Positions 885 to 27,676 of a stretch of DNA of 64,000 nt are shown one piece after another. The translations under genes and the position numbers were made by a program. Origin of the DNA: Micromonospora cremea (lineage in GTDB: Bacteria > Actinomycetota > Actinomycetes > Mycobacteriales > Micromonosporaceae); the NCBI RefSeq assembly GCF_900143515.1, contig NZ_FSQT01000002.1, positions 620,001-684,000 on the forward strand, given 5' to 3'. Below the pieces are notes generated by a model that worked only from the letters and a program-made list of their open reading frames with translations, made no database searches and had not been told where the DNA came from. The stretch's first letter is position 1. Each line of letters starts with the position of its first letter.

Positions 885-898
885 GCTGGGCGGAGAAG

Positions 899-971
899 CT
901 CCCCCGATTGGACTCGAACCAATAACCTGCCGGTTAACAGCCGGCTGCTCTGCCAATTGAGCTACAGGGGA
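899..971 (-). tRNA. tRNA-Asn (anticodon GTT)
   Basis: Read on the minus strand this is a full 73-base cloverleaf. The acceptor stem TCCCCTG pairs with CGGGGGA, the anticodon stem is GCCGG/CCGGC around loop CTGTTAA, and the T-arm ATTGG-TTCGAGT-CCAAT follows. The anticodon GTT decodes asparagine. CCA is not encoded. Confidence 0.97.
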
Positions 972-11958: not shown

Positions 11959-14832
11959 TCAGGGCAGGATCCACTTCTGGTTCGCGGCGGCGGTGCAGGT
12001 CCAGAGGTGCACGACGGTGCTGTCCGCCGAGTTGTTTCCGGAGACGTCGAGGCACTTGCCGGACTGCGCGTTACGCACCGTGCCGTCGGCCTGCGCGGCC
12101 CAGTTCTGCGCCCCGGTCCCGTTGCAGGTCCAGAGCTGGATCTTGGTGCCGTCGGCCGACCCGCCACCCGAGACGTCGAGGCACTTGCCCAACGCCCTGA
12201 TCGTGGAGTTCGGCGTGACCGTCCAGGTCTGCGCTGTACTGCCGTTGCAGGTGTAGATCTGGATCTGCGTACCGTCGGCGGTGGCGGCGTTGCGCACGTC
12301 CAGGCACTTGCCGCCCAGACCCTTGATCGGCCCAGCCCCGCCGGCGGGCGGCGTACCGGTGACGAAGGTGAACGCGTCCAGGTCGTAGAGCGCGCCGGTG
12401 CCCGACCCGGCGAAGGTCAGGTAGAGCGTCGTGGTGCCGGTCGGCGGGTTGGTGATCGCCCCCGTCACCGTGGTGAAGGTTTCCCAGCCTCCGGTGACCG
12501 GGACCGTGGCCGAACCGAGCACCGTGCCGGTGGCGGAGCCGGCCCGGACCTGGAGAGTGCCGCCGGCACCCGCCGAGGAGACCCGGGCGCTGAACGAGGT
12601 CACGTTGCCCAGCCGGTACGGCTGGAACGCGATCCAGTCACCGTTGTTGATGTCACCGACGGTCTTGCCACCCTCGGCCGGGGTCTTGCTGAACACGTTG
12701 ATCCCGGACGAGGTGCCGAAGAACTCGGCCTGCCGGTGCCGCGGCGGCAGCGTGTGCTGCGTGTGCGTGGTCAGCCCACCCGCGTCGGTGTACTCGGCGT
12801 CGAAGATGGCGAAGATGTTCGCCGCGTCGTCGTGCTCACCGTCGACCGGGATGGTGATCGATCCGGAGCAGCCGGTCTTCGAGGTGATCTGGTGCCCGTG
12901 CTGGTCGTGCCCGAGGACGTAGGTCATCTTGACCTTCGTGCAGTCGATCGTGCCGTCCTCCGGGTCGGTCACGGTGATGCTGAACGGCACCGTGTCGCCG
13001 AAGCTGAACAGCTGCCCGTTGCCGGGGCTGTTGATGGTCACGGTGGGCGCGGTGTTGCCAACGTTGATCACCACGCTGGCGGTGCCGGTGGCGCCCTGCG
13101 GGTCCCGCACGGTCAACGTCGCGGTGTAGGTGCCGTTGGCGGTGTAAGTCTTGGACGGGTTGGCTGCCGTGGAACTGGTGCCGTCACCGAAGTTCCACGA
13201 GTACGTCAGCGCGCCGCCCTCCGGGTCGGACGAGCCGGCCGAGGAGAACGTCACCGCCAGCGGTGCGGCGCCGGAGGTCCGGTTCGCGCTGGCCGAGGCG
13301 TTGGGTGCCCGGTTGCCGCCGCCGACGTAGTCGAAGCGGTAGAGCGCGGAGTTGGCGTCGCCGTTGAAGTAGCCGGTGCCGTAGTCGAGCACGTAGTACG
13401 CGCCGTCCGGGCCGAACGCCGAGTCCATCACCTGCTTGCCCACCCACGGGAAGGTGTCGATGACGCCTCGGGAGCCGTCCGCGTTGACGTGGATCGGCTT
13501 GATCCAGCCGCGGCCGAACTCGGTGGCGAAGAACTGCCCGTCGAACGACTGCGGGAACTTCGTCGTCGAGGTGGACGAGGCGTTGTACCGGTAGACCGGG
13601 CCGCCCATCGGTGACTCGGAGCCGCCGCCGAACTCGGGCGGGGTGCCGGCGTCGCCGGCGTACCGGATCCAGGCCGGCTTGGCCGCCGGCAGGGTGCCCA
13701 GGCCGGTGTTGCGGAACGAGTTGTTGGTCGGCCCGCCGGTGCAGTTGTACTTCGCTCCGCCAGTGTTGGTGGCGAAGTCCCACTCGTTGTACGTCTCGGT
13801 GCTGGTGTTGGTGCCGGTGCAGTACGGCCAGCCGTAGTTGCCGGCCGATGGGACCCGGTTGAACTCCACCTGGCCGGACGGCCCGCGGGTGGCGCTGGTC
13901 GAGCCGGCGTCCGGCCCGTAGTCACCGACGTAGACGACGCCGGTGGCCTTGTCCACGCTGATCCGGAACGGGTTGCGGAAGCCCATCGCGTAGATCTCCG
14001 GCCGGGTCCTGGCCGTGCCGGGCGCGAACAGGTTGCCCGCCGGGATGGAGTACGTGCCGTTCGCGTTCACCTTGATCCGCAGGATCTTGCCGCGCAGGTC
14101 GTTGGTGTTGCCGGCGCTGCGCTGCGCGTCGTACCCCGGGTTGCGGTTGGTCCGCTCGTCCAGGGGCGCGTATCCAGCGGAGTCGAACGGGTTGGTGTCG
14201 TCCCCGGTGGACAGGTAGAGGTTGCCGGCGGCGTCGAAGTCGATGTCTCCGCCGACGTGGCAGCACAGGCCGCGATCGGCCGGCACGTCGAGCACGTCGA
14301 CCTTGCTGGCCTGGTTGATGGTGAAGTCGGCGTTGAGGGTGAACCGGGAGAGCCGGTTGACGCCCTGCCAGGCCGAGAAGTTGGTGCCGGTGGCGGGCGC
14401 GTCGCCGCCGGGGGTGGAGAGCGGCGGGGCGTAGTAGAGGAAGATCTGCCGGTTGCTGGCGAAGTTGGGGTCGACCCCGACGCCCTGCAGGCCCTCCTCG
14501 TCGTGGGTGTAGACCGGCAGGGTGCCGATCACCGAGGTGGTGCCGTTGGCGTCGGTGCGGCGCAGGGTGCCGTTGCGGGCGGTGTGCAGGACCGAGCGGT
14601 CCGGCAGCACGGCCAACGACATCGGTTCACCCATGTCGGCCACGCCGCGGGCCAGCTCGACCTGCTGAAAGTCCGTGGCGTTGATGGGGTGGGCCTGGGC
14701 GGGGGTCGGGCCACCGAGCGCGGCCGGGCCGACGCCGAGCGCGACCGTGCCGGCCGCGGCCACCAGGAGCAGTGCCGATCCGGCGGAGAACCATCGTCGG
14801 GACCGGTGAGTGGAAGCGTCCTTTATGGACAT
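11959..14832 (-). CDS. Secreted PQQ-type sugar dehydrogenase + PKD + CBM + ricin lectin protein
   Basis: A 957-residue exported protein. The signal peptide (basic SRRWF, then a hydrophobic stretch ending AQAHP) spans ~1-48. Residues ~50-504 are a glucose/sorbosone dehydrogenase propeller with 'GDIDFDAAGNLYLSTGDD' and 'LRGKILRI' segments, closely matching the gene at 1934. Residues ~507-590 are a PKD domain (WNFGDGT), followed by a beta-rich linker, a CBM6-like module (~697-822), and a ricin beta-trefoil (~830-957) nearly identical to that of the neighbour. ATG at 14832 was chosen because the signal peptide begins there; a longer frame to 15051 adds only unconvincing sequence. Likely oxidises a sugar polymer or glycoside outside the cell. 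Confidence 0.9.
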   Translation of the reverse strand: MSIKDASTHRSRRWFSAGSALLLVAAAGTVALGVGPAALGGPTPAQAHPINATDFQQVELARGVADMGEPMSLAVLPDRSVLHTARNGTLRRTDANGTTSVIGTLPVYTHDEEGLQGVGVDPNFASNRQIFLYYAPPLSTPGGDAPATGTNFSAWQGVNRLSRFTLNADFTINQASKVDVLDVPADRGLCCHVGGDIDFDAAGNLYLSTGDDTNPFDSAGYAPLDERTNRNPGYDAQRSAGNTNDLRGKILRIKVNANGTYSIPAGNLFAPGTARTRPEIYAMGFRNPFRISVDKATGVVYVGDYGPDAGSTSATRGPSGQVEFNRVPSAGNYGWPYCTGTNTSTETYNEWDFATNTGGAKYNCTGGPTNNSFRNTGLGTLPAAKPAWIRYAGDAGTPPEFGGGSESPMGGPVYRYNASSTSTTKFPQSFDGQFFATEFGRGWIKPIHVNADGSRGVIDTFPWVGKQVMDSAFGPDGAYYVLDYGTGYFNGDANSALYRFDYVGGGNRAPNASASANRTSGAAPLAVTFSSAGSSDPEGGALTYSWNFGDGTSSTAANPSKTYTANGTYTATLTVRDPQGATGTASVVINVGNTAPTVTINSPGNGQLFSFGDTVPFSITVTDPEDGTIDCTKVKMTYVLGHDQHGHQITSKTGCSGSITIPVDGEHDDAANIFAIFDAEYTDAGGLTTHTQHTLPPRHRQAEFFGTSSGINVFSKTPAEGGKTVGDINNGDWIAFQPYRLGNVTSFSARVSSAGAGGTLQVRAGSATGTVLGSATVPVTGGWETFTTVTGAITNPPTGTTTLYLTFAGSGTGALYDLDAFTFVTGTPPAGGAGPIKGLGGKCLDVRNAATADGTQIQIYTCNGSTAQTWTVTPNSTIRALGKCLDVSGGGSADGTKIQLWTCNGTGAQNWAAQADGTVRNAQSGKCLDVSGNNSADSTVVHLWTCTAAANQKWILP

Positions 14833-15031
14833 TGGTGTGCTGTCCCTTCCTGACGAATGACTGCCAGGCCGGGCGCGCGCCGTCGCGCCGGGTGCCGTAG
14901 CGGTGGTGGGGATGCGGTCGGCCCACCGGGTGCGTCCCGGCCGGCCGTGACCACCGAGGTGGTGGGGGCCACGTGCTCGGAGGTCACCAGTCGATGGGTT
15001 ACCGCGCCGCCGGTTCACCTCGACGAAACAT

Positions 15032-15068
15032 TGTCGTGTTGGCCACGACACTAAATCGTGGAGTGTCG
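15032..15068. promoter_or_regulatory. Overlapping dyads, likely operators
   Basis: Two overlapping inverted repeats: TGTCGTG-N5-CACGACA (15032-15050) and CGACACT-N9-AGTGTCG (15046-15068), both with exact 7-base arms. The region is AT-richer than its surroundings and lies ~200 bases upstream of the dehydrogenase-ricin gene. The regulator is unknown. Confidence 0.45.
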
Positions 15069-15193: not shown

Positions 15194-16261
15194 TCAGGCG
15201 CGGCGGTCGATCGCCTGCGCGGCCAGCGCGACCAACGCAGCGCGGGCCTCCTCGGCCACCGCGGCGCTCTCCAGCGCGGCCAGCGCGGCCTCGGTCCGGA
15301 CCCGGATCATCTGCTCGATCCGCTCCCGAGCACCGGTCGCCTCGATGATCCCGCGCAGCTCCGCCGCGCCGTCGGCGTCCAGCGCCGGATTGCCGAACAG
15401 CTCGCGCAGCCGGGCGGTCTGCGGCCGGTCGGCGGCGCTACGGGCCAGCGCCATCATCACCGTCGGCTTGCCCTCCCGCAGGTCGTCCAGGACCGACTTG
15501 CCGGTGACCGCCGGGTCGCCGAAGACGCCCAGCACGTCGTCGCGGAGCTGGAACGCGTCGCCCAGCGGGTCACCGAACTCGCCCAGCGCGGCGATCAGCT
15601 CCGGCCCCGCGCCGGCCAGAGCCGCGCCGATCTGCAGCGGCCGGGTCACCGTGTACCGGGCGGCCTTCATCCGGATCACGGTGAGCGCGCTGGCCACCGA
15701 GCCGTCGCCCACCCCGGACACCAGGTCCAGGTACTCCCCCGCGATCACCTCGGTACGCATCAACGCGAACACCCCGTACCCCCGGTGCACCTGCTCGGTA
15801 CTCAGGCCGCACTCGTGGAACATCTGGTCCGACCAGGCCGCGCAGAGATCCCCGCAGAGCAGCGCCGTGTTGCGTCCGTACGCCTCGGGGTCGCCGCGCC
15901 AGGACGAACGTGCGTGCAGGTCGGCGAAGAGCCGGTGCACCGACGGCTCGCCCCGGCGGCGGTCGCTGCCGTCCAGGATGTCGTCGTGGATCAAGGCGAA
16001 CGCGTGGAACAGCTCCAGTGCCGCCGCGGCCACCACGATCGGGGTGCCGTCGGGCGCCCCGGCACCGCGCCAGCCCCAGTAGCAGAAGAGCGGGCGCAGC
16101 CGCTTCCCGCCGGCCAGCACGAACCGGTACAGCGCGGTGAACACTCCGCGTGGCGCGCCGTCCGGCCAGTCCGGGCCCTGCCGGTCCAGGAACCCGGCCA
16201 GCTCCGCGTCGAAACGCGCCCGCAGCCCGCTCGCGTCGGTGGGCGTGACGGTGACGGTCAT
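15194..16261 (-). CDS. Polyprenyl (isoprenyl diphosphate) synthetase
   Basis: A 355-residue trans-prenyltransferase. The first aspartate-rich motif is 'DDILDGSDRRRG' and the second is 'DDVLGVFGD', both needed for Mg-diphosphate binding; 'GGKRLRP' near residue 52 is the substrate-binding Lys-Arg motif. It condenses isopentenyl diphosphate units into a longer isoprenoid diphosphate; chain length cannot be read reliably. Its ATG overlaps the stop of the upstream phosphatase-like gene by four bases (ATGA), so it is the last gene of the ebo-like operon. It probably supplies the prenyl donor for the UbiA-like enzyme encoded at 21450. Confidence 0.93.
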   Translation of the reverse strand: MTVTVTPTDASGLRARFDAELAGFLDRQGPDWPDGAPRGVFTALYRFVLAGGKRLRPLFCYWGWRGAGAPDGTPIVVAAAALELFHAFALIHDDILDGSDRRRGEPSVHRLFADLHARSSWRGDPEAYGRNTALLCGDLCAAWSDQMFHECGLSTEQVHRGYGVFALMRTEVIAGEYLDLVSGVGDGSVASALTVIRMKAARYTVTRPLQIGAALAGAGPELIAALGEFGDPLGDAFQLRDDVLGVFGDPAVTGKSVLDDLREGKPTVMMALARSAADRPQTARLRELFGNPALDADGAAELRGIIEATGARERIEQMIRVRTEAALAALESAAVAEEARAALVALAAQAIDRRA

Positions 16262-17682
16262 GAACCCTCCCTCGACCGGTCCGCCTCGGCGCCACCGCCG
16301 GGAATCAGCCCGGCCAGCTCCAGCAGCAGTGCCTTCACCTCGGTGGCCGCGATCCGCTCCCGGGCGGCGGCCGGGTCGGAACAGAGCAGCACCGGGGCGT
16401 CCGCCGGGTCGTCCGGCAGCCGACCGTGCGACCCGCGTACCGCCCGCGCCCCGGCGTCCAGGCCGACCGCGCTCATCAGGTAACGCATGCCCAGCTTCTT
16501 GCGGGCCAGCGCGATGCCCGCCCGACGCTTCGCCGCACCCGGCGCGGCCGGATCGAAGAACAGCTCGGCCGGGTCGTAGCCCGGCTTCCGGTGAATCTCC
16601 ACCAGCCGGGCGAAGTCCGGTGCGCGGGCGTCGTCCAGCCAGTAGTAGTAGGTGAACCAGGCGTCCGGCTCGGCCACCAGCACCAGCTCACCGGCGCGCG
16701 GATGATCCAGCCCGTGCGCGGCCTTGCCCTCGGCGTCGAGCACCTCGGCCACTCCGGGCAGCCCGGCGCAGAGCTTCGCCACCGTCGGCACGTCGGCCGG
16801 GTCCCGCACGTAGACGTGCGCGATCTGGTGGTCGGCGACCGCGAACGCCCGGGACGTCCACGGGTCGAGGTACTCCATGCCGGCCTGGGTGTGCACCCGC
16901 AGCAGCCCCTCGGCGCGCAACAGCCGGTTGACGTCCACCGGCCGGGACACGTCGGTGATGCCGTACTCGGAGAGCACCACGACGGTGGCGTCGCGGGCCC
17001 GGGCGGCGTCCAGGAGCGGCCCGAGCACCGTGTCGAGTTCGGCCGCCGCGGCCGCCGCCTGGGCGGAGGACGGGCCGTACCGTTGCAGGTCGTAGTCCAG
17101 GTGCGGGACGTAGACCAGGGTCAGGTCGGGCGACACGGCGGCCAGGATCTGCTCGGCCGCCTGGCAGATCCACCGCGACGAGGGCAGCCCGGCTGTCGGC
17201 CCCCAGTAGGTGAACAGCGGGAAGGTGCCCAGCCGCCCGGTGAGCGCGTCGTGCAGCTCCGGCGGGTCGGTGTAGCAGTCCGGCTCCTTGCGCCCGTCGG
17301 CGTAGTACACGGGCCGTGGAGTGACCGTCCAGTCGACGTCCGCGCCCATCGCGTACCACCAGCAGACGTTGGCGACGGTGTAGCCGGGCTCGGCCCGGCG
17401 GGCCGCCTGCCAGAGCTTCTCCCCGCCGACCAGCGCGTTGTGCTGCCGCCACAGCAGCACCTCACCCAGCTCCCGGAAGTACCAGCCGTTGCCGACGATC
17501 CCGTGTCCGCTCGGCGGCTCGCCGGTGAGGAAGGTGGACTGCACCGAGCAGGTCACCGCGGGCAGCACGGTGCCGAGCTCGGCCCGGAAGCCGCCGTCGG
17601 CGACCCCCCGCAGCCGGGGCATGTGCGCCAGCAGCCGCGGGGTCAACCCGACCACGTCGAGCACCACGAGTCGCCGGCTCAT
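16258..17682 (-). CDS. Alkaline phosphatase superfamily / nucleotide pyrophosphatase-like protein (EboF-like)
   Basis: A 474-residue cytoplasmic protein with no signal peptide. The N-terminal 'VLDVVGLTPRLL' strand supplies the first metal aspartate, and 'PAVTCSVQSTFLTG' holds the Thr/Ser nucleophile region. 'VYVPHLDYDLQRYG' and 'VVVLSEYGITDVSRPVD' are the later metal-binding segments typical of nucleotide pyrophosphatase/phosphodiesterases. In ebo clusters this family is called EboF. It overlaps its neighbours by four bases on both sides (ATGA), which indicates translational coupling. The substrate is unknown; a phosphodiester or phosphate on the cluster's product is a reasonable guess. Confidence 0.85.
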   Translation of the reverse strand: MSRRLVVLDVVGLTPRLLAHMPRLRGVADGGFRAELGTVLPAVTCSVQSTFLTGEPPSGHGIVGNGWYFRELGEVLLWRQHNALVGGEKLWQAARRAEPGYTVANVCWWYAMGADVDWTVTPRPVYYADGRKEPDCYTDPPELHDALTGRLGTFPLFTYWGPTAGLPSSRWICQAAEQILAAVSPDLTLVYVPHLDYDLQRYGPSSAQAAAAAAELDTVLGPLLDAARARDATVVVLSEYGITDVSRPVDVNRLLRAEGLLRVHTQAGMEYLDPWTSRAFAVADHQIAHVYVRDPADVPTVAKLCAGLPGVAEVLDAEGKAAHGLDHPRAGELVLVAEPDAWFTYYYWLDDARAPDFARLVEIHRKPGYDPAELFFDPAAPGAAKRRAGIALARKKLGMRYLMSAVGLDAGARAVRGSHGRLPDDPADAPVLLCSDPAAARERIAATEVKALLLELAGLIPGGGAEADRSREGS

Positions 17683-18884
17683 CGCGACACCCCCGCCGTG
17701 GCCGTCGTGGTCAGCTCCGGGGTCAGGCCCAGACCGACCAGCTCGTCGCGGGCGAAGGCCAGCTCGGCGGCGATGCCGGCGGCCAGCTCCGCGTCGGTGC
17801 CCGGCCGCCGCGCGGCCGGCAGCACCCCCCAGGTGTACGTCTCCACGTCGAGGTGGTCGCAGCCGGCGGCGGGGCCGGCGTAGAGCGCGGCCAGCGCGGC
17901 GCGCAGCACCGGCAGGGTGGACCCGAGTGGTTCCTCGGGTGGGGCGTGCAGCGGCACGTGGTAGTGCACCCGCCACGGCCCGGGCAGCGCCGCGTCGAGC
18001 GCCTCGTCGAGGTCGTCGGCGGCGTACGCCGGGTCGGCCGGGTCGGCCCCGCCGGCGCAGCCGGCACCCCGGGTCTGGTGCAGGAAGCGCGGCTCCACCC
18101 ACCGGCGCAGCGCTTCGGCGCCGCCGGCCGGGTCGGCCGCCTCGACGGCGGCGGAGACCTGCACCTTGACCACCGGCAGGCCGGCCGCCCGCAGCCGGTC
18201 CAGCGCCACCGCCGGCTCCTCCCAGGCACAGGCCAGGTGGGCCAGGTCGAGGCAGACGCCCAGCCGCTCGGTGTCCATCCCGGACAGCAGCGCGGCGGCC
18301 TGACCGGTGCTCTCCACCACGCAGCCGGGCTCCGGCTCGAAGGCGACCCGCACCTGGCGGCCGGTGTCCCGCTGGACCGCGGCCAGGCCGGCCGCGAGCT
18401 GGTCCAGCCGGCGGCGGGCCGCGTCGGCCCGATCGGTGTCCCACGGTTGGCGCCAGGCCAGCGGCAGGGTGGAGATCGAGCCCCGGGCGGCGTCGTCGGG
18501 CAGCAGGTCGGCGAGCACCCGGGCCAGGTTCAGGGTGTACGTCAGTCGCTGCTCGGTGGTCCAGTCCGGCCGGTAGACCTCATGCTTGACCACCGGTGCC
18601 TGGAAGGCGGCGTACGGGAAGCCGTTGAGGGTGACCACCTCCAGGCCACGCGCGTCCAGTTCGGTGCGCAGCCGGCGGCGCAGCGCCGGGTCGGCGGCCA
18701 GTTCGGCGGCGACCGGGGCGGCCAGCCACAGGCCGAGCCCGAGCAGGTCGCTGCCGAGCGCCGCGCGTACCGGCACGGCGTAGGTGTCCAGTTGGGCGAG
18801 GATGCCGGCGAGATCCTCGGCGGGGTGCACGTTGGTGCAGTAGCCGAGGTGCACGGTGTCGCCGCCGGCGTGCCGCAGCCGCAT
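17679..18884 (-). CDS. eboE: Metabolite traffic protein EboE (TIM-barrel)
   Basis: A 401-residue xylose-isomerase-like TIM barrel of the EboE type. The N-terminus 'GYCTNVHPAEDLAGIL' is characteristic, followed by 'EVVTLNGFPYAAFQ', 'VAFEPEPGCVVES', 'GVCLDLAHLACAWEE' and 'HYHVPLHA', which carry the expected metal-binding acids and histidines. In cyanobacteria the ebo genes are needed to deliver a scytonemin precursor to the periplasm; the enzymatic role of EboE is not established. ATG at 18884 shares one base with the stop of the TatD gene, and the stop overlaps the next start. Confidence 0.88.
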   Translation of the reverse strand: MRLRHAGGDTVHLGYCTNVHPAEDLAGILAQLDTYAVPVRAALGSDLLGLGLWLAAPVAAELAADPALRRRLRTELDARGLEVVTLNGFPYAAFQAPVVKHEVYRPDWTTEQRLTYTLNLARVLADLLPDDAARGSISTLPLAWRQPWDTDRADAARRRLDQLAAGLAAVQRDTGRQVRVAFEPEPGCVVESTGQAAALLSGMDTERLGVCLDLAHLACAWEEPAVALDRLRAAGLPVVKVQVSAAVEAADPAGGAEALRRWVEPRFLHQTRGAGCAGGADPADPAYAADDLDEALDAALPGPWRVHYHVPLHAPPEEPLGSTLPVLRAALAALYAGPAAGCDHLDVETYTWGVLPAARRPGTDAELAAGIAAELAFARDELVGLGLTPELTTTATAGVSR

Positions 18885-19738
18885 CAGCTGCCGCCACGCA
18901 GGATCGAGTTGCCGGTCTCCGGGTCGACGGCCGCGAGTTCCAGGTCGGTCAGGTCGAGCCGGCCGGACTGCCCGTAGAACTGCACCGGGTTGCGCCACAG
19001 CACCTGGTCGACGTCGTCGTCGGTGAATCCGGCCAGCAGCATCGCCTCGCCGGTGGCGCGGGTCAGCAGCGGGTCCGAGCGCCCCCAGTCGGCGGCCGAG
19101 TTGACCAGCATCCGTTCCGTCCCGTACTCCCGCAGCAGCTCCACCATGCGTGGCGGTGACATCTTGGTGTCCGGGTAGATGGAGAACCCCAGCCAGCAGC
19201 CGGTGTCCCGGACCAGCTTGACGGTCACCTCGTTGAGGTGGTCGACGACCACCCGGCCCGGGTCGATGCCGGATTCGGTGACCACGGCGAGGGTGCGCTC
19301 GACACCGCGGGCCTTGTCCCGGTGCGGGGTGTGCACCAGCGCCGGCAGGTCGTACGCCACGGCCAGCGCGAGCTGTGCGGCGAACGCCTCGTCCTCCTCC
19401 GGTGTCATCGAGTCGTACCCGATCTCGCCGACCGCGACCACCGCGTCCTTGTCCAGGTAGCGCGGCAGCAGGTCGAGCACCGGCCGGCAGCGGGCGTCGT
19501 TCGCCTCCTTGGGGTTCAGCGCCACGGTGGCGTGGTGCCGCACCCCGAACTGCCCGGCCCGGAACGGCTCCCAGCCGATCAGGGAGTCGAAGTAGTCGGC
19601 GAACGAGGCGGCGCTGGTGCGGGGCTGGCCCAGCCAGAACGCAGGCTCCACCACGGCCCGGACGCCGGCGGCGGCCATCCGTTCGTAGTCGTCGGTGGTG
19701 CGTGAGGTCATGTGGATGTGCGGGTCGAAGATGCGCAT
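18884..19738 (-). CDS. TatD family metal-dependent hydrolase (EboB-like)
   Basis: A 284-residue amidohydrolase-fold protein. 'FDPHIHMTS' at the N-terminus holds the HxH metal pair, 'VAVGEIGYD' the bridging glutamate, 'ALVHTPHRDK' and 'VVDHLNE' further histidines, and 'LVNSAADWG' the final aspartate. TatD-type proteins with this arrangement are the EboB component of ebo clusters. GTG at 19741 and ATG at 19738 are adjacent; ATG was chosen because its A is shared with the EboA stop (TGATG). Substrate unknown. Confidence 0.88.
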   Translation of the reverse strand: MRIFDPHIHMTSRTTDDYERMAAAGVRAVVEPAFWLGQPRTSAASFADYFDSLIGWEPFRAGQFGVRHHATVALNPKEANDARCRPVLDLLPRYLDKDAVVAVGEIGYDSMTPEEDEAFAAQLALAVAYDLPALVHTPHRDKARGVERTLAVVTESGIDPGRVVVDHLNEVTVKLVRDTGCWLGFSIYPDTKMSPPRMVELLREYGTERMLVNSAADWGRSDPLLTRATGEAMLLAGFTDDDVDQVLWRNPVQFYGQSGRLDLTDLELAAVDPETGNSILRGGS

Positions 19739-20376
19739 CACGCCTCCGTGGGGGTGGGACGGTCGACGGTGCCGGTTCCTCCGCTGTGCGCGGTGAGCCG
19801 GTCGAGCAGGTCGGTGGCGTCGGCGGGCAGCTCCCGGCCGGCGGCGTGCCGCTCGGCGGCCAGCGCGGCCAGCATCGCGGCCAGCTCACCGTCGGCGCGG
19901 GCGTCCAGGTCGGCCACAGCGGCCAGCGGCACGCCGGAGAACACGCACTTGAGCACCGCCTGCCGCCACGCCGCCGGGTCGAGGTGCCGGGCGTACGGGC
20001 CGAGCGCGGCGGCGACCAGTCGGGTGTCGTTGGTCCGGATCGCGTCGTGCAGCAACGGCACCCCGGCGGCCCCGATCGGCAGCAGCGGCAGGGCTCGCAG
20101 CACCGCCCGCCGCTCGGCCGCGTCGCCGTGCCGGTAGAGCGTGCCGGCGTGCTCGGCGTGGTCAGCGGGCAGCGCGGTGAGCAGCAGCACCCGGGCCGCG
20201 TCGTCGGCCGTCCAGCCCGGTGCGTCGGGCAGTGCGGCCCGGCCGCAGCGCCGGCCGGCGGCCGGGAAGAGCCGGGCGATCGCGCCGGGCTCTGCCGCGA
20301 CCCGGCGCAGCGCCGTGTCCAGCCAGCCGGGATCGGGTACGCCCCGCAGCGCGGCCCGTAGTGAATCCGGTGTCAT
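19738..20376 (-). CDS. eboA: EboA family metabolite traffic protein
   Basis: A 212-residue, mostly helical, HEAT-like protein of the EboA family. Recognisable stretches are 'GWTADDAARVLLLTALP', 'RHGDAAERRAVLRALPLLP', 'LLHDAIRTNDTRLVAAALGPYA' followed by 'LDPAAWRQAVLKCVFSGVPL', which is the most conserved part. The family has no known activity and defines ebo operons. ATG 20376 has a GGAGGA site. It begins just downstream of an inverted repeat that also covers the end of the preceding gene. Confidence 0.87.
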   Translation of the reverse strand: MTPDSLRAALRGVPDPGWLDTALRRVAAEPGAIARLFPAAGRRCGRAALPDAPGWTADDAARVLLLTALPADHAEHAGTLYRHGDAAERRAVLRALPLLPIGAAGVPLLHDAIRTNDTRLVAAALGPYARHLDPAAWRQAVLKCVFSGVPLAAVADLDARADGELAAMLAALAAERHAAGRELPADATDLLDRLTAHSGGTGTVDRPTPTEA

Positions 20377-20407
20377 CCCGTCTCCTCCCTCGTGCTGCTC
20401 CGCAGGC

Positions 20408-20520
20408 ACCCCAGGCGCGCCCTTTGCTCTGCTTCACTCCACGCGACGGCCACTGTCCGGATATCGGACGGCCGCTGTTGCGTCCGTTGAAGCAGGGCAA
20501 AGGGCGTCTCGGGGCACCTC
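20408..20520. repeat. Imperfect palindromic repeat overlapping a gene end
   Basis: Imperfect inverted repeat centred near 20462 (core GATATC). Outer arms such as CGCCCTTTGCTCTGCTTCA (left) have near-exact counterparts on the right near 20490-20506. It fills the space between EboA and the preceding TIM-barrel gene and encodes the last ~25 residues of that gene. It has the look of a small non-autonomous mobile repeat; other copies cannot be checked here. Confidence 0.65.
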
Positions 20521-21453
20521 GTGCGCGCTGCGCCGGTCAGTCGCCGTCGTGATCGCGGTGGTGCTCCGGGCCGCCGCCGTCGCGACGGCGGCGCGCAGGA
20601 ACTCGATCGACCGGGCGGCCACGGCGGGCGCGGCATGCGAGTCCCGGGGCAGCTCGACGGCGACCAGCCCGCGGTAGCCGGCCTGCGCCAGGGCCGCCAG
20701 CACCGGCGGGAAGTCGATCTCGCCGGAGCCGAACTCCAGGTGCTCGTGCACGCCCCGGCGCATGTCGTCGATCTGCACGTTGACCAGGTGCCCGGCCACC
20801 TCGGCGACGCACTGCGGCACCGGCCACGGCTCCAGGCAGCGGCAGTGCCCGATGTCGAGGGTGATGCCGAAGCGGCCGGGGTCTCCGAGCGCCGCGCGCA
20901 ACCGGCGCCAGCCGGCGATGTCCTCGACCAGCATCCCCGGCTCCGGTTCGAAGCCGAGGGTGACACCGGCGGCGTCGGCGGCGTCGACCACGGTGGCGCA
21001 GCCGGCCACCAGCCGGTCCCAGGCGGTCTGCGCCGGCACGGCGTCGGGGCGGACGCCAGCCCAGAAGGAGACCGCCTCCGCGCCCAGGTCGGCGCCGATC
21101 CGGACGGCCCGGCGCAGGAACTCGATCCGCCGGGTCGGGTCGTCGTGCAGCAGCGTCGGTGCGTGCTTGTGCCACGGGTCGAGCAGGTAGCGGGCTCCGG
21201 TCTCGATCACCACCGCGAGGCCCAGCGCGCTCAGCCGCCGGCCCACCACCGCGATCCGGCGGGACAGACCGGGGGCGAACGGGTCGAGGTGGTCGTGGTC
21301 GAGCGTGAGCGCCACCCCGACGTAGCCGAGGTCGGCGAGGACCGCGAGCGCGTCATCGAGCCGGTGGTTGGCGAAGCCGTTGGTGCCGTACCCGAGGCGC
21401 AGCGTCCGTGGGTCGGCGACCGGCGGTGCGGCGCGGGGCTGGGGGGCGGTCAT
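20434..21453 (-). CDS. Sugar phosphate isomerase/epimerase-like TIM barrel in ebo operon
   Basis: A 339-residue TIM barrel: 'GYGTNGFANHRLDDALAVL' opens the barrel, 'VVIETGARYLLDP', 'GFEPEPGMLVED', 'GITLDIGHCRCLEP', 'VNVQIDDMRRGVHEH' and 'VAVELPRDSH' carry likely metal ligands. It is distinct from EboE but of the same superfamily. The C-terminal ~25 residues after 'HEVPRDALCP' are encoded by an inverted repeat and probably are not native. ATG at 21453 overlaps the stop of the prenyltransferase gene by four bases. Confidence 0.86.
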   Translation of the reverse strand: MTAPQPRAAPPVADPRTLRLGYGTNGFANHRLDDALAVLADLGYVGVALTLDHDHLDPFAPGLSRRIAVVGRRLSALGLAVVIETGARYLLDPWHKHAPTLLHDDPTRRIEFLRRAVRIGADLGAEAVSFWAGVRPDAVPAQTAWDRLVAGCATVVDAADAAGVTLGFEPEPGMLVEDIAGWRRLRAALGDPGRFGITLDIGHCRCLEPWPVPQCVAEVAGHLVNVQIDDMRRGVHEHLEFGSGEIDFPPVLAALAQAGYRGLVAVELPRDSHAAPAVAARSIEFLRAAVATAAARSTTAITTATDRRSAHEVPRDALCPASTDATAAVRYPDSGRRVE

Positions 21454-22382
21454 GTCGGGGAGACCTTCCGGGCCAGCCGCCGGCCCAGCGGCGCCGCCGC
21501 CGCGACGGCCAGCCCGAGCAGGCCGGCTCCGCCGCGCGCGGTGAGCGCTCCCTGCAGGGCGGGCAGTCCGGTGATCCCGGCGCCGACCGCGGCGCGTACC
21601 CGCCCGGCCGACGGGTCCCGGACCACCTGGGCCTGTGCCGCGCCGTAGCGGGCGGCGTACCAGCCGGACAGTATCGCGGGCAGCGCGGCGGCGAGCCCGA
21701 GCGACCGGGCCCGGCCGCCGCCCACACCGGCCCGGTCGTCGGCCGGGCTCCGCCCGGCGCGCCGGGCGGCGGCGCCGGGGGCTGCGACGGCGGCGCTGGC
21801 CGCGACCAGTGCGGTGCCGGCCAGCGTGCGCAGTGGCAGGGCCGCGTCGGCGCCGGTGACCTCGCGGCGGGACAGCGCGGTGACCGTCCAGGTGTGCGCG
21901 GCGACGGTCGCCGCCGCCGGCAGCGCCCGGGTCAGCCGACCGCCGGACGCGCCGAGCAGCACGTCCAGCCCGCGGCAGGCGGCCATCACGGCGGGCCCGG
22001 CGGCCGTGTTCTTGGCCAGCAGGTCGTACCCCCAGATGCTGGCCGCCAGCGGCACGGCGAGCGCGGCGGCGCGGCGACCGCCCACGGCGACGGCCAGGCC
22101 CAGGCCGGCGGCGGTGAGGCCGGCCGCGAGACCAACCGCGGCGGCCGGAGTGACGCGGCCGCTGGGGATGGGCCGCTCGGGCCGCTCGACGGCGTCCAGC
22201 CGCCGGTCGGCCCAGTCGTTGGCGGCCATGCCGGCCCAGTAGAGCAGCACCGAGGCGCCGGCCAGGGCGGGGGTACGCCGGCTCAGCGCGCCGGCCGCCG
22301 CGGCGCCGGCGACCACGTCCCCGGGGACCGAGAGCGCGGCCGGCGCCCGGACCAGCTCGGCGAGGTCAGCCAACGTTGTCAT
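21450..22382 (-). CDS. UbiA-like prenyltransferase, SCO3242 type (EboC-like)
   Basis: A 310-residue integral membrane protein with about eight hydrophobic helices. The prenyl-diphosphate binding motif NDWADRRLD (NDxxDxxxD) lies at about residue 55, followed by 'ERPERPIPSGRV', both hallmarks of UbiA enzymes. It transfers an isoprenyl chain to an acceptor in the membrane. EboC of the ebo clusters is the corresponding member. Its start overlaps the end of the inositol-phosphate synthase gene by 17 bases. The isoprenoid donor is probably made by the polyprenyl synthetase at the operon's end; the acceptor is not known. Confidence 0.9.
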   Translation of the reverse strand: MTTLADLAELVRAPAALSVPGDVVAGAAAAGALSRRTPALAGASVLLYWAGMAANDWADRRLDAVERPERPIPSGRVTPAAAVGLAAGLTAAGLGLAVAVGGRRAAALAVPLAASIWGYDLLAKNTAAGPAVMAACRGLDVLLGASGGRLTRALPAAATVAAHTWTVTALSRREVTGADAALPLRTLAGTALVAASAAVAAPGAAARRAGRSPADDRAGVGGGRARSLGLAAALPAILSGWYAARYGAAQAQVVRDPSAGRVRAAVGAGITGLPALQGALTARGGAGLLGLAVAAAAPLGRRLARKVSPT

Positions 22383-23532
22383 CAGAACCGTCCCGACCGG
22401 CGTGCAGCTGACGGGTGAAGTCGACCAGCCGGGCCCACTGCTCGGCCAGCGAGTGGGTGGGCGCGCCGAGCGGGTCCTTGAAGAAGAAGCCCAGCTCGGC
22501 CAGCGGCCCGACGTGACCGGCGGCGTGCGCGGCGGCGGTGAGCCGGGCCAGGTCGAGCACCAGCGGCGCGGCCAGCGCGGAGTCGCAGCCGTGCCAGGTG
22601 AACTCCATCCGCATCCCGGTGCCGAGGAAGCCGGCGAAGGTGATCAGATCCCAGGCGGTCTTGAAGTCGCCCAGCTCCTCGACGTACTCGATCCGGGTGC
22701 CGCCCTGCGGCAGGTAGCCCAGCGTCTCGCCGAGCACCCGCTGCTTGCTCTGCACCTTGGCCGCGTTGGCGGCCGGGTCGGCGAGGGTGGCGCCGTCGCC
22801 ACCGCCCAGCAGGTTGACCCCGGACCAGGAACGCACGGCCAGGTTCCGCATCGCGAACATCGGCGCGAGCACCGACTTGACCAGGGTCTCCCCGGTCTTG
22901 CCGTCGTGCCCGGCGTACGGCAGCCGGACCTGCTCGGCCAGCGCGGTCAGCGCCGGCAGCCGCAGCCCGGTGGACGGGGTGAAGTCGACGTACGGGCAGC
23001 CGGCCAGCAGCGCCGAGTACGCGTACAGGGAGCTGGACGGCAGCACCTCGTCGGGGCCGGTGAGGGCGGCGCGCAGCGCGTCCGGATCGGCGTGCCCGGG
23101 ATGCGGTGCGGGGGCCGGTTCGGTGGCGGAGACGTTGACGACCACCACCCGGTCCAGCGCGTGCCGCTCACGGAAGGCGGTGAGGTCGCGGACCACGGCG
23201 GCGGCCCGGTCGGCCTGGGTGGCGCCGACCGGCGCGGGGCGCAGCTCCTGCTCGACGGCGGCCAGCTCGTCGGGGAGCGCGGCGACCAGCCGGCCGGGGA
23301 TGACGCCGCTGTCGGCCAGTGCCTCGGCCCGCTTGCACAGCGGGGTGGTGGCCACGTCGTGCCCGCCGAAGACCAGATCGGCGAAGGACGGCAGGGCGGG
23401 GCCGCGTAGCTCCGGCAGCTCGGTGACGCAGCCGGTCGGCCCGGCCAGGCCGGCCCGCAGCGCGAGCCCTCCGACGATGCTGGTGGTCGCGACGGAACCG
23501 CGCGCGCCCACCAACCAGACACCCGTTCGCAT
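22366..23532 (-). CDS. Inositol-3-phosphate synthase family protein
   Basis: A 388-residue protein. It has a dinucleotide-binding N-terminus (VWLVGARGSVATT) and the conserved synthase segments 'DFTPSTGLRLPAL', 'AGHDGKTGETLVKSVLAPMF', 'SWSGVNLLGGGDGATL' and 'HGCDSALAAPLVLDL'. The family turns glucose 6-phosphate into inositol phosphate by an NAD-dependent internal aldol. As first gene of the ebo-like operon it probably serves a dedicated pathway rather than mycothiol or phosphatidylinositol supply, although that is inference. GGAAGGAG precedes the ATG. It could act on a different sugar phosphate. Confidence 0.9.
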   Translation of the reverse strand: MRTGVWLVGARGSVATTSIVGGLALRAGLAGPTGCVTELPELRGPALPSFADLVFGGHDVATTPLCKRAEALADSGVIPGRLVAALPDELAAVEQELRPAPVGATQADRAAAVVRDLTAFRERHALDRVVVVNVSATEPAPAPHPGHADPDALRAALTGPDEVLPSSSLYAYSALLAGCPYVDFTPSTGLRLPALTALAEQVRLPYAGHDGKTGETLVKSVLAPMFAMRNLAVRSWSGVNLLGGGDGATLADPAANAAKVQSKQRVLGETLGYLPQGGTRIEYVEELGDFKTAWDLITFAGFLGTGMRMEFTWHGCDSALAAPLVLDLARLTAAAHAAGHVGPLAELGFFFKDPLGAPTHSLAEQWARLVDFTRQLHAGRDGSDDNVG

Positions 23533-24153: not shown

Positions 24154-25380
24154 TCAGACAGCCACCGCGGCCAGCGCCGGTTGCACCTCGGTCCAGGAGG
24201 AGCCGATCTCCGCCGAACGGGTCACCGCGTCCAGCACGAGCTGGACCTGCAACGCGTCGGCGAAGGAGGGAGCCGGGTCGGCGCCGGTGGCGACCGCCTC
24301 GATGAAGTCGCGCATCTGGTGGGTGAAGGAGTGCTCGTAGCCGATGATGTGGCCGGGCGGCCACCACGCCGACATGTACGGGTGCTCGCCCTCGGTCACC
24401 AGGATGCGGCTGAAACCCTGTTCCACGCTGGGCCGGGTGGCGTCGTAGAACTCCAGTTCGTTGAGGCGTTCCAGGTCGAAGACCACACTGCCCAGCGAGC
24501 CGTTGATCTCGACACGCAGGGCGTTCTTGCGACCGGTGGCGAACCTGCTCGCCTCGTACGTGGCTAGGGCGCCACCGTCGAGCCGGGCCACGAAGACCGC
24601 GGCGTCGTCGACGGTGACCGGACCGGTGGCCGGGGCGTTGCCGTCCACCGAACCGCTGCCGTCCACCGAGGCCGCCAACCCGCTGGACCCGGCCGGCAAC
24701 GGCCGCTCCTTGACGAAGGTCTCGGTGACCGCGCTGACGCCGGTGATCCGCTGGCCGGTGACGAACTGGGTCAGATCGATGATGTGCGCGCCGATGTCAC
24801 CGAGCGCACCGGAGCCCGCCCTGTCCTTCTGCAACCGCCACACCAGCGGGAACTGCGGGTCCACGATCCAGTCCTGCAGGTACGTCGCTCGGACGTGTCG
24901 AATCACCCCGAGTCGTCCGTCGGCGACCAGCTGGCGCATCATCGTGACCGCGGGAACCCGGCGGTAGTTGAACCCGCACATCGACCGCACCCCGGCTGCC
25001 CGGGCGGTGTCCGCCGCGGCGGTCATCGCCCGCGCCTCGGCCACCGTGTTGGCCAACGGCTTCTCACACAGCACGTGCTTGCCGGCGGCCAACGCGGCGA
25101 GTGCGATCTCGGCGTGGCTGTCACCCGGGGTGCAGACGTCGACCACGTCGATGTCGTCCCGGCTGATCAGGTCACGCCAGTCCGTGGTGTACGCGTCCCA
25201 ACCGAGCCGGTCGGCGGCGTCCGCCACCTTTCCGGTGTCCCGGCCGCAGATCAGCGCCATCCGGGCCCGCGCCGGCAGGTCGTACACGCGGTTCACGGTC
25301 CGCCACGCCTGCGAGTGCGCGGCGCCCATGAACGCGTAGCCGACCATGCCGACCCGCAGTTCTCTGTCTGTCGTGGACAA
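24154..25380 (-). CDS. Gfo/Idh/MocA family oxidoreductase
   Basis: A 408-residue NAD(P)-dependent dehydrogenase. The Rossmann motif is 'VGMVGYAFMGAAHSQAW' at the N-terminus, 'EKPLANT' is the conserved catalytic lysine motif (residue ~106), and 'GDIGAHIIDLTQFV' contains the family's aspartate-histidine pair. These enzymes oxidise or reduce hydroxyl groups of sugars and inositols, often producing or removing a 3-keto group. It is the last gene of a sugar ABC transporter operon, 20 bases after the binding-protein gene. Substrate not known. Confidence 0.92.
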   Translation of the reverse strand: MSTTDRELRVGMVGYAFMGAAHSQAWRTVNRVYDLPARARMALICGRDTGKVADAADRLGWDAYTTDWRDLISRDDIDVVDVCTPGDSHAEIALAALAAGKHVLCEKPLANTVAEARAMTAAADTARAAGVRSMCGFNYRRVPAVTMMRQLVADGRLGVIRHVRATYLQDWIVDPQFPLVWRLQKDRAGSGALGDIGAHIIDLTQFVTGQRITGVSAVTETFVKERPLPAGSSGLAASVDGSGSVDGNAPATGPVTVDDAAVFVARLDGGALATYEASRFATGRKNALRVEINGSLGSVVFDLERLNELEFYDATRPSVEQGFSRILVTEGEHPYMSAWWPPGHIIGYEHSFTHQMRDFIEAVATGADPAPSFADALQVQLVLDAVTRSAEIGSSWTEVQPALAAVAV

Positions 25381-25400: not shown

Positions 25401-26453
25401 TCAGAACCCGAGCTTCTCGTAGCTGCTCGCGTTCTCCTTGGTGATCGTCTCCGAGGCGAGGGTCAGTTCCTTGGGCACCTGCAGCTCCGTGAGGTCACCC
25501 AGGCCCCGGCCCTGGGCGATGAGCCGGGCGAGCGAGATCGCCGACGAGGCCATCGACGGGTTGTAGGTGACCGTCGCCTTGAGCACGCTGTTGTCGGCCT
25601 TGATCGCCTCGATCGCGAGCTTCGAGCCCGCGCCGCCGACCATGAAGAACTCCGAGCGGTTGGCCTGCTTGATGGCGGCGAGCACGCCGATGCCCTGGTC
25701 GTCGTCGTGGTTCCAGATCGCGTCGATCTTCGGCAGCGCCTGGAGCAACTGGGCCGCCTCGCGCTGGCCGCTGTCCGAGGTGAACTCGGCCGAGCGGCGG
25801 TTGTTCACCTCGAACCCGTAGGTGGCCAGGGCCGCCGCGAAGCCCGCGCTGCGCTCGACGGTCAGCGGGATCTCCAGACCGGCGATCTCACCGATGATCG
25901 GGTTGGCGACGCCCTTGTCCTTGAGCTGCTTGCCGATGAAGTGCCCGGCGGAGACGCCCATGCCGTAGTTGTCGCCCTTGATGACCAGCCGCGAGGCCAG
26001 CGCGTCGGGGAAGACCCGGTCGAGGTTGACGATCGGGATGCCCGCCTGCATCGCCTGGAGGGCGACCGCGTTGACCTCCTTGCCGTCGTGCGGCAGCACG
26101 ACGATGATGTCCGGCTTCTGGGCGATCAGCGTGCCGAGGGTCGAGCGCTGAGCCTCGGAGGTCGTCCCACCGTCGACCTCCTTGAGCTCCACGTCCGAGT
26201 ACGCGGCGGCCTGCGCCTTGGCGTTGGCGTGGATCGCGCCCATCCAGCCGTGGTCGGCGGCGGGGGCGGAGAAGCCGATGACGACCTTCTTGCCCGGGGC
26301 GTTGTTGCCGGCGCCGTCTCCGGCGGCCTTGGTCTGGGTGCTGGCCGCGGGGGTTTCGTTACTGGTGCAGGCGGTGAGCAGGGTGGCAGCGCCGACGGCG
26401 GCCCCACCGAAAAGCAAGCGACGACGCGACAGGTCGCGACTGTGCTGGGTCAT
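25401..26453 (-). CDS. Sugar ABC transporter substrate-binding lipoprotein
   Basis: A 350-residue periplasmic-binding protein of the ribose/galactose type (peripla_BP_4). The N-terminus combines a twin-arginine motif (SRRRLLFGG) and a lipobox (LLTAC), so it is probably exported folded and lipid-anchored. 'VVIGFSAPAADHGWMGAIH' begins the first lobe and 'IDAIWNHDDDQGIGVLAAI' the second. ATG 26453 follows CAGGAGG. With the permease and ATPase upstream it forms an importer; the ligand is likely a monosaccharide or inositol but is unproven. Confidence 0.93.
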   Translation of the reverse strand: MTQHSRDLSRRRLLFGGAAVGAATLLTACTSNETPAASTQTKAAGDGAGNNAPGKKVVIGFSAPAADHGWMGAIHANAKAQAAAYSDVELKEVDGGTTSEAQRSTLGTLIAQKPDIIVVLPHDGKEVNAVALQAMQAGIPIVNLDRVFPDALASRLVIKGDNYGMGVSAGHFIGKQLKDKGVANPIIGEIAGLEIPLTVERSAGFAAALATYGFEVNNRRSAEFTSDSGQREAAQLLQALPKIDAIWNHDDDQGIGVLAAIKQANRSEFFMVGGAGSKLAIEAIKADNSVLKATVTYNPSMASSAISLARLIAQGRGLGDLTELQVPKELTLASETITKENASSYEKLGF

Positions 26454-26548
26454 GACGACCTCCTGGGAACGGGATGGAGTTGTTGAGGGTGTGCGAGGTC
26501 CGGCCACTGTCGAATGTCTCGACGTCGCCAGGAACAACGTGCGGTGCG

Positions 26549-27676
26549 TCAGGTTGTGGTGGTGAGCCTGTTCCGCGCGAGGAGCCGAGTGAAGGACTTG
26601 AACTGGAACTGCTGGACCAGGACGGCGGCGACGATGATGCCGCCCTTGACCATGTTCTGTGCCTCGATGGAGAGGCCGTTGATGGCGAAGAGGTTGGTGA
26701 TCGTGGCAAAGATGATCACGCCGAGCAGCGAGCCGACGATCGTGCCCCGACCACCGCTGAGCAGCGTCCCGCCGATGATCGCTGCGGCGATCGCGTCCAG
26801 CTCGTAGAGGTTGGCCATCGCCGCCTGGGCCGAGGTGGCCTGGGAGGTGAGCATGATGGCGGCGATGCCGCAGCAGAGGCCGGAGAGCGCGTAGAGCAGC
26901 ATGGTGTGCCGGCGGACGTTGATGCCGGCCAGCCGCGCGGCCTCCGGGTTGCCGCCGACCGCGATGGTCCGCCGCCCGAAGGTCGTCCGGTTGAGCAGGA
27001 CCCACCCGGCCACCACGACCGCGCCGAGGATGTAGACCAGGATCGGAATCCCGAGCACCTTGCGCGCCGCGATGTCGTTGATGAACGTGCTGCTCGAGAC
27101 CTGGGTCTGCTTGTTGGAGATCGACGCCGCGAGCCCGCGAGCGGCCACCAGCATCGCGAGCGTCGCGATGAAGGGCACCAGCCGCCCGTACGAGATGAGC
27201 ACGCCGTTGACCAGACCCACGCAGATGCCGACCACGATCGCGGTGAAGATCATGCCGGCGGCGCCGTAGCTCTGGGTGGCCACCGTGGTGCACCAGACGC
27301 CGGCCAGCGCGACGATCGCTCCGACCGACAGGTCGATGCCGCCGCCGATGATCACGAAGGTCATGCCCACCGTGACCACGCCGACGACCGAGGCGAGCTG
27401 GAGGATGGCCAGGATGTTGTTCCAGACCCAGGTGGGATCGTCGTAGAGGTCGGGCTTGGTGATCGCGCCGACCAGGATGAGCGCGGCCAGCACTCCGATC
27501 AGACCGAGGTTGCGCTTGACACCGTCGCCGTTGTCACCCCGCCACCAGGAGAGCCGCCCCCTGGATGCCGCCTTGTCGCCGGCCACCGCCGTCTCGGCCG
27601 GGTCCACCGGCGGCGACTGCACCGGAAGCTGCGTGCGCTCCGGTGTCGCGGTGGGTGTGGGAGTCGCGTCGCTCAT
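26549..27676 (-). CDS. Sugar ABC transporter permease (ribose type)
   Basis: A 375-residue protein with a ~45-residue charged N-terminal extension and about ten membrane helices. Family markers are 'VTVGMTFVIIGGGIDLSVGAIVAL', here split as GMTFVIIGGGIDLSVG, then 'GLVNGVLISYGRLVPFIATL' and 'AVGGNPEAARLAGINV', the coupling region. It dimerises to form the channel for the importer encoded by its neighbours. Its start overlaps the ATPase stop by four bases. Confidence 0.93.
   Translation of the reverse strand: MSDATPTPTATPERTQLPVQSPPVDPAETAVAGDKAASRGRLSWWRGDNGDGVKRNLGLIGVLAALILVGAITKPDLYDDPTWVWNNILAILQLASVVGVVTVGMTFVIIGGGIDLSVGAIVALAGVWCTTVATQSYGAAGMIFTAIVVGICVGLVNGVLISYGRLVPFIATLAMLVAARGLAASISNKQTQVSSSTFINDIAARKVLGIPILVYILGAVVVAGWVLLNRTTFGRRTIAVGGNPEAARLAGINVRRHTMLLYALSGLCCGIAAIMLTSQATSAQAAMANLYELDAIAAAIIGGTLLSGGRGTIVGSLLGVIIFATITNLFAINGLSIEAQNMVKGGIIVAAVLVQQFQFKSFTRLLARNRLTTTT

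Follow-up and report, generated by a model that had tools for sequence, protein, structure and literature searches.

A variant ebo operon in Micromonospora cremea with an inositol-phosphate synthase in the place of EboD, and the prenylated cyclitol that it may make

When the dedicated cyclase of an ebo operon is missing and an unrelated one stands in its place, the question arises what the operon needs: EboD as such, or a cyclitol ring? A locus of this kind lies in a stretch of 64,000 nucleotides of Micromonospora cremea (contig NZ_FSQT01000002.1, positions 620,001 to 684,000), referred to below as the window, in which an ebo-type operon carries a myo-inositol-phosphate synthase (Ino1). The papers of 2016, 2018 and 2022, in their available sections, do not settle what ebo operons make. 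Since Ino1 is an ordinary, assayable cyclase and the variant occurs in culturable actinomycetes (Micromonospora, Streptomyces), labelling and mass spectrometry of lipids could address the question of the product directly; the variant itself suggests that the need is for the cyclitol ring and not for EboD. We lean towards the view that this Ino1-type variant of the ebo operon gives a prenylated, inositol-derived cyclitol lipid. The genes, in the order of transcription (INO-UBIA-TIM-EBOA-TATD-EBOE-PDE-PPS), are:

INO, 22366..23532, minus strand: Ino1-type cyclase of 388 amino acids (myo-inositol-phosphate synthase family), first core gene, in the place of EboD
UBIA, 21450..22382, minus strand: membrane prenyltransferase of 310 amino acids, counterpart of EboC, SCO3242 family
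TIM, 20434..21453, minus strand: xylose-isomerase-like TIM barrel of 339 amino acids (PF01261), extra enzyme of the Ino1 version
EBOA, 19738..20409, minus strand: EboA-domain protein, helical repeat; GTG start, ATG at 20376 likelier
TATD, 18884..19741, minus strand: EboB-type TatD/PTE metallohydrolase of 285 amino acids (PF01026)
EBOE, 17679..18884, minus strand: TIM-barrel protein EboE of 401 amino acids
PDE, 16258..17682, minus strand: EboF-type phosphodiesterase / nucleotide pyrophosphatase of 474 amino acids (PF01663)
PPS, 15194..16261, minus strand: polyprenyl diphosphate synthase of 355 amino acids (PF00348), last gene of the operon, lineage-specific

An earlier, sequence-only reading had described eight minus-strand genes in nearly continuous overlap, and so they are: all eight frames lie at these coordinates and six of the seven junctions overlap, INO/UBIA by 17 bases, TATD/EBOE by 1 base, and UBIA/TIM, EBOA/TATD, EBOE/PDE and PDE/PPS by 4 bases each. 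The sole junction without overlap, TIM/EBOA, has a gap of 24 bases, or of 57 with the ATG at 20376 as the start of EboA, the option favoured by the point at which the consensus of its relatives begins. The identities proposed in that reading (Ino1, UbiA-like prenyltransferase, TIM barrel, EboA, TatD, EboE, phosphodiesterase, polyprenyl synthetase) agree with Pfam and NCBIfam, family calls being made throughout from profile scores against the curated cut-offs.

In particular, INO has both Ino1 domains, PF07994 and PF01658, above cut-off, and its best-scoring solved relative is the archaeal Ino1 1u1i (236 bits), which has the same active-site lysines and which, to our knowledge, is not known from any ebo cluster. 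Residues K259, K263, K291, K352 and N240 are conserved in at least 97% of 48 aligned rows, and K263 and K352 align with lysines in whose place the solved structures 3qvw and 3qvx have alanine; we take these lysines to be active-site residues of Ino1. With both Pfam domains and these lysines, INO has the features of an Ino1, and it is unrelated to EboD, which resembles 3-dehydroquinate (DHQ) synthase. The prenyltransferase is a UbiA-family protein (PF01040), as had been read, but it can be placed more narrowly: it passes the curated equivalog cut-off of the "SCO3242 family prenyltransferase" (NF045897, 370 bits, cut-off 260) and fails the EboC model (NF035940, 118 bits versus 250). Its motif N55-D56-x2-D59-x3-D63 is conserved in at least 97% of 55 rows, EboC of the EboD-type clusters included, and its weak NCBIfam matches include geranylgeranylglycerol-phosphate transferases, enzymes that prenylate a polyol. 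EBOE, which is 95% identical to the EboE of Micromonospora sp. U21 and BL4, passes the equivalog model NF035939 (417 bits, cut-off 250); EBOA passes the EboA domain model (NF035938, 160 bits, cut-off 50) and stays below the full-length EboA family (NF035937, 76 bits versus 320), its predicted structure (predicted local distance difference test score 86) being a nearly all-helical repeat. Residues H8, H10, E106, H140, H168 and D218 of TATD are conserved in at least 97% of 56 rows, and E169, D200 and E267 of TIM across its aligned relatives; the fold of TIM, compared with an eye to the inosose isomerase IolI, is a sugar-epimerase-type barrel of the kind shared by sugar epimerases and xylose isomerase in general. 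We presume the conserved residues of UBIA, TATD and TIM to be catalytic, and, judged by this conservation, INO, UBIA, TATD and TIM look like active enzymes. Against the NCBI model of IolE (myo-inosose-2 dehydratase, TIGR04379), TIM scores 27 bits, below the curated cut-off of 290. The best NCBIfam model for PPS is a short-chain farnesyl/geranyl synthase, with 316 bits, below the cut-off of 600.

As compared to the eboA-F operon in the available sections of its descriptions (PMC5133447, PMC6282210), the cluster has in common the EboA domain, a TatD-type EboB, a UbiA-type EboC, the TIM-barrel EboE, the phosphodiesterase EboF and the compact arrangement; it differs in having no EboD, an Ino1 and a second TIM barrel instead, a UbiA enzyme of another NCBI family, and no scytonemin genes. 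The operon is thus ebo-type in its EboE, EboA domain, EboB (TatD-like) and EboF (phosphodiesterase), and lacks two canonical features, the EboC-family UbiA and the sugar-phosphate cyclase EboD.

How general is this arrangement? The survey covered Actinomycetota genomes and, for other groups, plasmid records only. A search of the phylum covered 396 genomes (19 with EboE, 18 above cut-off) and a search of the class 394 (98 with EboE, 90 above cut-off), while among GTDB contigs EboE picked out 234 confirmed relatives, of which the best 80 loci, mostly from Micromonospora, were used. From the genome searches 94 EboE regions were fetched, all 19 of the phylum search and 75 hand-picked from the 98-genome set; the picking skipped many near-repeats of one genus, and the 94 loci are not a random draw. 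Gene presence was called by tblastn with the window proteins at 50 bits, at which diverged genes may be missed. Of these regions, 79 are clusters and 15 hold only an EboE-like gene. All seven core genes, from INO to PDE, are present in 67 of the 79 clusters (67 genomes, 13 families), and since their order and strand are the same in 67/67 of these and also in 68 of the best 80 GTDB loci, the remaining 12 of which start at a contig end within or just before the cluster, the gene arrangement of the core is not chance. Among the incomplete clusters, two are interrupted by a contig end (L176, L198), one shows no UBIA (L214), and one, L109 of genome G381, is the sole EboD-type cluster of the 79. The polyprenyl synthetase, earlier counted as an operon member, is present in the window but is lineage-specific and outside the core: it occurs in 67 of the best 80 GTDB loci, all with record titles that we assign to Micromonosporaceae, and is absent from those of Nonomuraea, [Actinomadura], Sphaerisporangium and Actinacidiphila among the 80.

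Does Ino1 indeed take the place of EboD? With INO as the query, a cluster-type Ino1 was found in 17 of the 396 genomes (at least 334 bits; next best 227 bits), all of them EboE-positive and none without EboE (Fisher p 6e-28, uncorrected for relatedness). The two of the 19 EboE genomes that have no such Ino1 are G381, with EboD, and G279, with a frameshifted cluster. With EboD of L109 as the query, its own genome G381 gave 1009 bits and the next genome 141 bits, the level of AroB; the cluster of G381 has no Ino1 and no TIM, and the only Ino1 of this genome is located elsewhere. As the sequence-only reading had placed Ino1 in the position of EboD, an EboD elsewhere in the same genomes would speak against it; an EboD-level match was found in 0 of the 17 genomes with cluster-type Ino1, and the one DHQ-synthase-family gene above cut-off in the genome of the window (G000) has AroB-like similarity to EboD. 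Plasmid records give the same picture: 47 have EboE, 44 an Ino1 and 16 an EboD (at least 284 bits), and the 47 with EboE divide into 29 with Ino1 (25 Streptomyces, 2 Embleya, Nonomuraea and Gemmatirosa), 15 with EboD, 3 with neither and 0 with both. The sixteenth EboD record (Gloeothece) gave no EboE match, and its stretch carries annotations for TatD and EboD alone; an Ino1 and an AroB-level match occur together on one Methylobacterium record. The annotated EboD-type clusters of Deinococcus, Azospirillum, Ketogulonicigenium, Aureibacter, Roseivivax and Mycetohabitans all hold EboD, EboE, UbiA, TatD and a phosphodiesterase or phosphatase gene, with EboA annotated in all but Deinococcus; none of the six has an Ino1, and the only further sugar isomerase gene among them, downstream of the Ketogulonicigenium cluster, is far from TIM in the tree. 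Thus, in the samples searched, the two cyclases exclude each other, and Ino1 stands in for EboD, in most cases bringing an extra TIM barrel along.

The role of this barrel can be approached from its company. The sequence-only reading listed it without tying it to Ino1, with which it usually travels: TIM is present in 68 of the 72 phylum-survey clusters that have INO. In 7 of 150 loci (Micromonospora, Catellatospora, families f2, f8 and f92) TIM and EboA share a single open frame; such hybrids were mentioned in 2016 as "data not shown" in the available text of PMC5133447. EboA probably docks on the TIM barrel, and the variant thus links EboA to a partner, as well as pointing to archaeal relatives (see below). 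A second type of cluster combines an Ino1 with a Gfo/Idh dehydrogenase, a YcaO-like protein, a TIM barrel of the same family as the ebo TIM (by a quick tree) and a PIG-L deacetylase:

L237:7818-14444, Hymenobacter: annotated Ino1-YcaO cluster
L238:7977-15329, Roseomonas: annotated Ino1-YcaO cluster
L235:9001-15915, Methylobacterium: only Ino1 and TIM matched

The two annotated clusters resemble that of the window in Ino1, TIM and Gfo/Idh, but have YcaO and the deacetylase, and no UbiA, EboA or EboE is annotated in them; they look like the source of an inositol-derived metabolite. Because TIM adjoins Ino1 also in these unrelated clusters, it most likely acts on an inositol derivative. Distinct lineages, in turn, have genes for a prenyl donor beside the cluster: in Micromonosporaceae PPS follows PDE, in three of the five family f8 loci (L105, L159, L178) a polyprenyl synthase immediately precedes INO on its strand, and a type-2 isopentenyl diphosphate isomerase gene, named by eye, comes directly after the EboD-type cluster (L109:12621-13661).

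Outside Actinomycetota, TatD, UbiA, two TIM barrels, Ino1 and PDE lie together on plasmids of Halocatena, Halobaculum and Natronococcus (L231, L232, L233), with TatD, PDE and Ino1 40-48% identical to those of the window. No EboA is recognisable in these clusters and, because neither TIM barrel groups clearly with EboE in the tree, they appear to be a related cluster and not a full ebo operon. In two of the three loci (L231, L233) a BMP-type importer and further sugar genes lie nearby. A control genome, Haloferax volcanii, gave matches for Ino1 and, below cut-off, for EboE.

Taken together, the operon works like an isoprenoid-cyclitol pathway, and our best reading of the genes is that a prenylated inositol-derived cyclitol would be the simplest product to fit the parts. 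Ino1 would convert glucose 6-phosphate into inositol phosphate; the TIM barrel, docked to EboA, would isomerise or epimerise the ring, assisted by a Gfo/Idh dehydrogenase where one is nearby; the membrane UbiA enzyme would add a prenyl chain, which in Micromonosporaceae may come from the operon's own short-chain synthase; and EboE, TatD and the phosphodiesterase would trim or rearrange the product. What results would be a membrane-located lipid, a prenylated cyclitol, perhaps in the service of exported oxidative chemistry; the sequence-only reading had suggested that it may act as a membrane carrier in the traffic of metabolites. The joining of an isoprenoid to a cyclitol, also envisaged in the sequence-only reading, is thus supported as a reading but is not new: it was proposed in 2016 for the EboD operon (PMC5133447), in the main text of which, as far as it is available, the word "inositol" is absent.

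The genes that flank the cluster in the window bear on what else it could do:

24154..25380, minus strand: Gfo/Idh/MocA dehydrogenase (PF01408), upstream of INO; recurrent neighbour, candidate cyclitol oxidiser
25401..29298, minus strand: ribose-type ABC importer, with binding protein, permease and ATPase (PF13407, PF02653, PF00005); recurrent neighbour
11959..15051, minus strand: glucose/sorbosone dehydrogenase-type protein (PF07995 etc.) with PKD, CBM6 and ricin-type lectin domains, downstream; probably secreted (by eye)

The Gfo/Idh/MocA protein has 4h3v as its best PDB match, followed by the putative dehydrogenase 6a3f and, lower, by the scyllo-inositol/L-glucose dehydrogenase 5ya8, and it reaches 364 bits against the levoglucosan dehydrogenase model (cut-off 650). 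A relative of the glucose/sorbosone-dehydrogenase-type protein, counted by tblastn at 150 bits, is found in the fetched stretch of 40 of the 79 clusters, in eight families, and at 0 of the 15 lone-EboE loci; the genome background, counted by Pfam profile, is 2 to 14 such matches per genome in 22 genomes chosen for having this neighbour, or about 0.02 expected per 20 kb, related genomes not being independent. A ROK regulator lies near 14 of the 79 clusters.

Several observations weigh against the prenylated cyclitol. Some clusters are without TIM only (L158, L160, L177); two have the full stretch without INO (L106, L170), although each of these genomes has a second, INO-bearing cluster (L108 and L179, respectively); one is without both INO and TIM (L195), one shows no UBIA, TIM or PDE (L180), and the frameshifted L123 shows no INO or TIM. 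Since TIM is absent from L158, L160, L177 and L180, and INO from L106, L170, L195 and L123, neither is strictly required beside the remaining genes. In G419 (L195) and G279 (L123) the other Ino1 falls in the YcaO-type clade and lies near a TIM elsewhere in the genome, and three of the plasmid records with EboE, all from Streptomyces, lack both cyclases on the plasmid. Only 8 of the 79 clusters have a Gfo/Idh dehydrogenase nearby, and 7-8 have importer parts; because two Gfo/Idh genes also lie directly upstream of EboD in Ketogulonicigenium (L243:4907-6953), and the EboD cluster of Azospirillum has a sugar importer in its neighbourhood, these neighbours are not peculiar to the Ino1 version. Further, the cluster on plasmid 2 of Gemmatirosa kalamazoonensis (L234: EboE, TatD, PDE, an EboC-like gene, Ino1 and TIM) is a mosaic of EboD-type and Ino1-type proteins for which the single-protein trees disagree, so that the cyclase swap may have happened once or twice. 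Finally, Ubi-297 of Maribacter, an ebo-linked prenyltransferase of the UbiA type, farnesylated 8-hydroxyquinoline-2-carboxylic acid in vitro, according to the available sections of PMC9235831.

This last finding speaks for a different use of the parts, to which we give perhaps a minor share of the probability: the UbiA enzyme could prenylate another acceptor, such as an aromatic one, inositol being used elsewhere, for instance as a head group. Ubi-297, an EboC relative with a farnesyl donor, comes from a cluster described with EboD, and its tested acceptors were aromatic (PMC9235831, available sections), whereas the seven core genes include no aromatic-pathway gene and the weak matches of UBIA to polyol-prenylating enzymes point away from such an acceptor. 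No more and no less plausible is a like-for-like swap, in which the routes through EboD and Ino1 give the same end product, either EboD using glucose 6-phosphate, on which its distant relative 2-deoxy-scyllo-inosose synthase acts, or the later enzymes taking either ring, with TIM adjusting the product of Ino1. Such a swap would suit the clear homology of EboE, TatD and PDE between the versions (37%, 40% and 56% identity of L109 to the window), the passing of one NCBI equivalog model by EboE of both, and the absence of a TIM of this kind from the EboD-type clusters read. It sits less well with the score of UBIA below the EboC cut-off, with the separation of bacterial Ino1-type from EboD-type UbiA in the tree (the haloarchaeal UbiA excepted, which a very short branch places on the EboD side of the midpoint root, Ino1-type though it is), with the separation of the two types of EboE, as expected with differing substrates, and with the published phylogeny, in the available text, that places EboD near users of sedoheptulose 7-phosphate (PMC5133447).

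The flanking genes invite two further readings, both improbable. In the less improbable one, a membrane redox lipid would be built from inositol, not shikimate: Ino1 and Gfo/Idh would yield an inosose, the TIM barrels would, by isomerisation and dehydration, take it towards a polyhydroxy-benzenoid ring, UbiA would prenylate this ring, and the resulting prenyl-quinol-like lipid would serve secreted beta-propeller dehydrogenases, namely the glucose/sorbosone-dehydrogenase-type proteins near half of the clusters and the ScyE-type protein in a few. If so, the two kinds of ebo operon would lead by different ways to lipids that sustain oxidations on the outer side of the membrane, and this would also agree with the part that ebo plays in the maturation of scytonemin. 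In the other, for which we see little chance, the cluster would be a locus for the utilisation of sugars or cyclitols, with the importer, ROK regulator, Gfo/Idh dehydrogenase and secreted sugar dehydrogenase feeding the TIM barrels. Importer, Gfo/Idh and ROK genes do adjoin the cluster of the window and some others, and the dehydrogenase-type and ROK neighbours recur as counted above, but Ino1 and UbiA are building enzymes, and importer and Gfo/Idh genes lie near few clusters as compared to the seven-gene core. Least credible of all is that Ino1, although its enzyme family is the ordinary one, merely adds to the inositol supply for phosphatidylinositol or mycothiol: of the 12 checked genomes with the cluster-type enzyme, 11 have a second Ino1 (the exception being G268), as does the genome of the window, so that the cluster Ino1 is dispensable for housekeeping inositol, and in the sample of 396 the cluster-type Ino1 keeps to genomes with EboE.

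Parts of the system are already known by name. SCO3242 of Streptomyces coelicolor has given its name to the NCBI family of UBIA, SCO3243 is annotated as myo-inositol phosphate synthase, their numbers being adjacent, as INO and UBIA are, and both are listed as CDA antibiotic-cluster genes in S. coelicolor transcriptomics, in the available part of that report (PMC3610822). Our literature search found no paper on the Ino1 version, its spread, the exclusion of EboD or the archaeal relatives. The other five core genes presumably correspond to SCO3237-3241.

Some minor observations may be added. On one Streptomyces plasmid, the cluster lies between a ScyD/ScyE-family gene and a multicopper oxidase (L236:10629-11828 and 20757-22235), an arrangement that, by analogy, echoes the periplasmic part of scytonemin synthesis; weak matches to that ScyE-type protein occur in two further loci (L165, L182). 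Upstream of L106 and L170, in two family f4 genomes, there are a FAD oxidoreductase and an inositol-monophosphatase-like gene, both named by eye. Among the loci without a cluster, L184, L205, L208, L219 and L220 encode full-length EboE-like proteins of 31-34% identity, above the NCBI EboE cut-off, and in L184, L219 and L220 the gene stands alone amid sugar-use genes, so the EboE model seems to catch non-ebo proteins as well. L221-L230, from f91 genomes, show lone, short or partial EboE-like matches below the NCBI cut-off, nine of the ten being about 50% identical over 242 positions. The window itself has two glucose/sorbosone-dehydrogenase-type domains, at 13789-14628 (inside 11959-15051) and at 2795-3652, and two further features:

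15032..15050, minus strand: terminator-like stem-loop 3' of PPS, a pattern match only (2 in the region versus 1.0 expected)
898-971, minus strand: tRNA-Asn (gtt), elsewhere in the window

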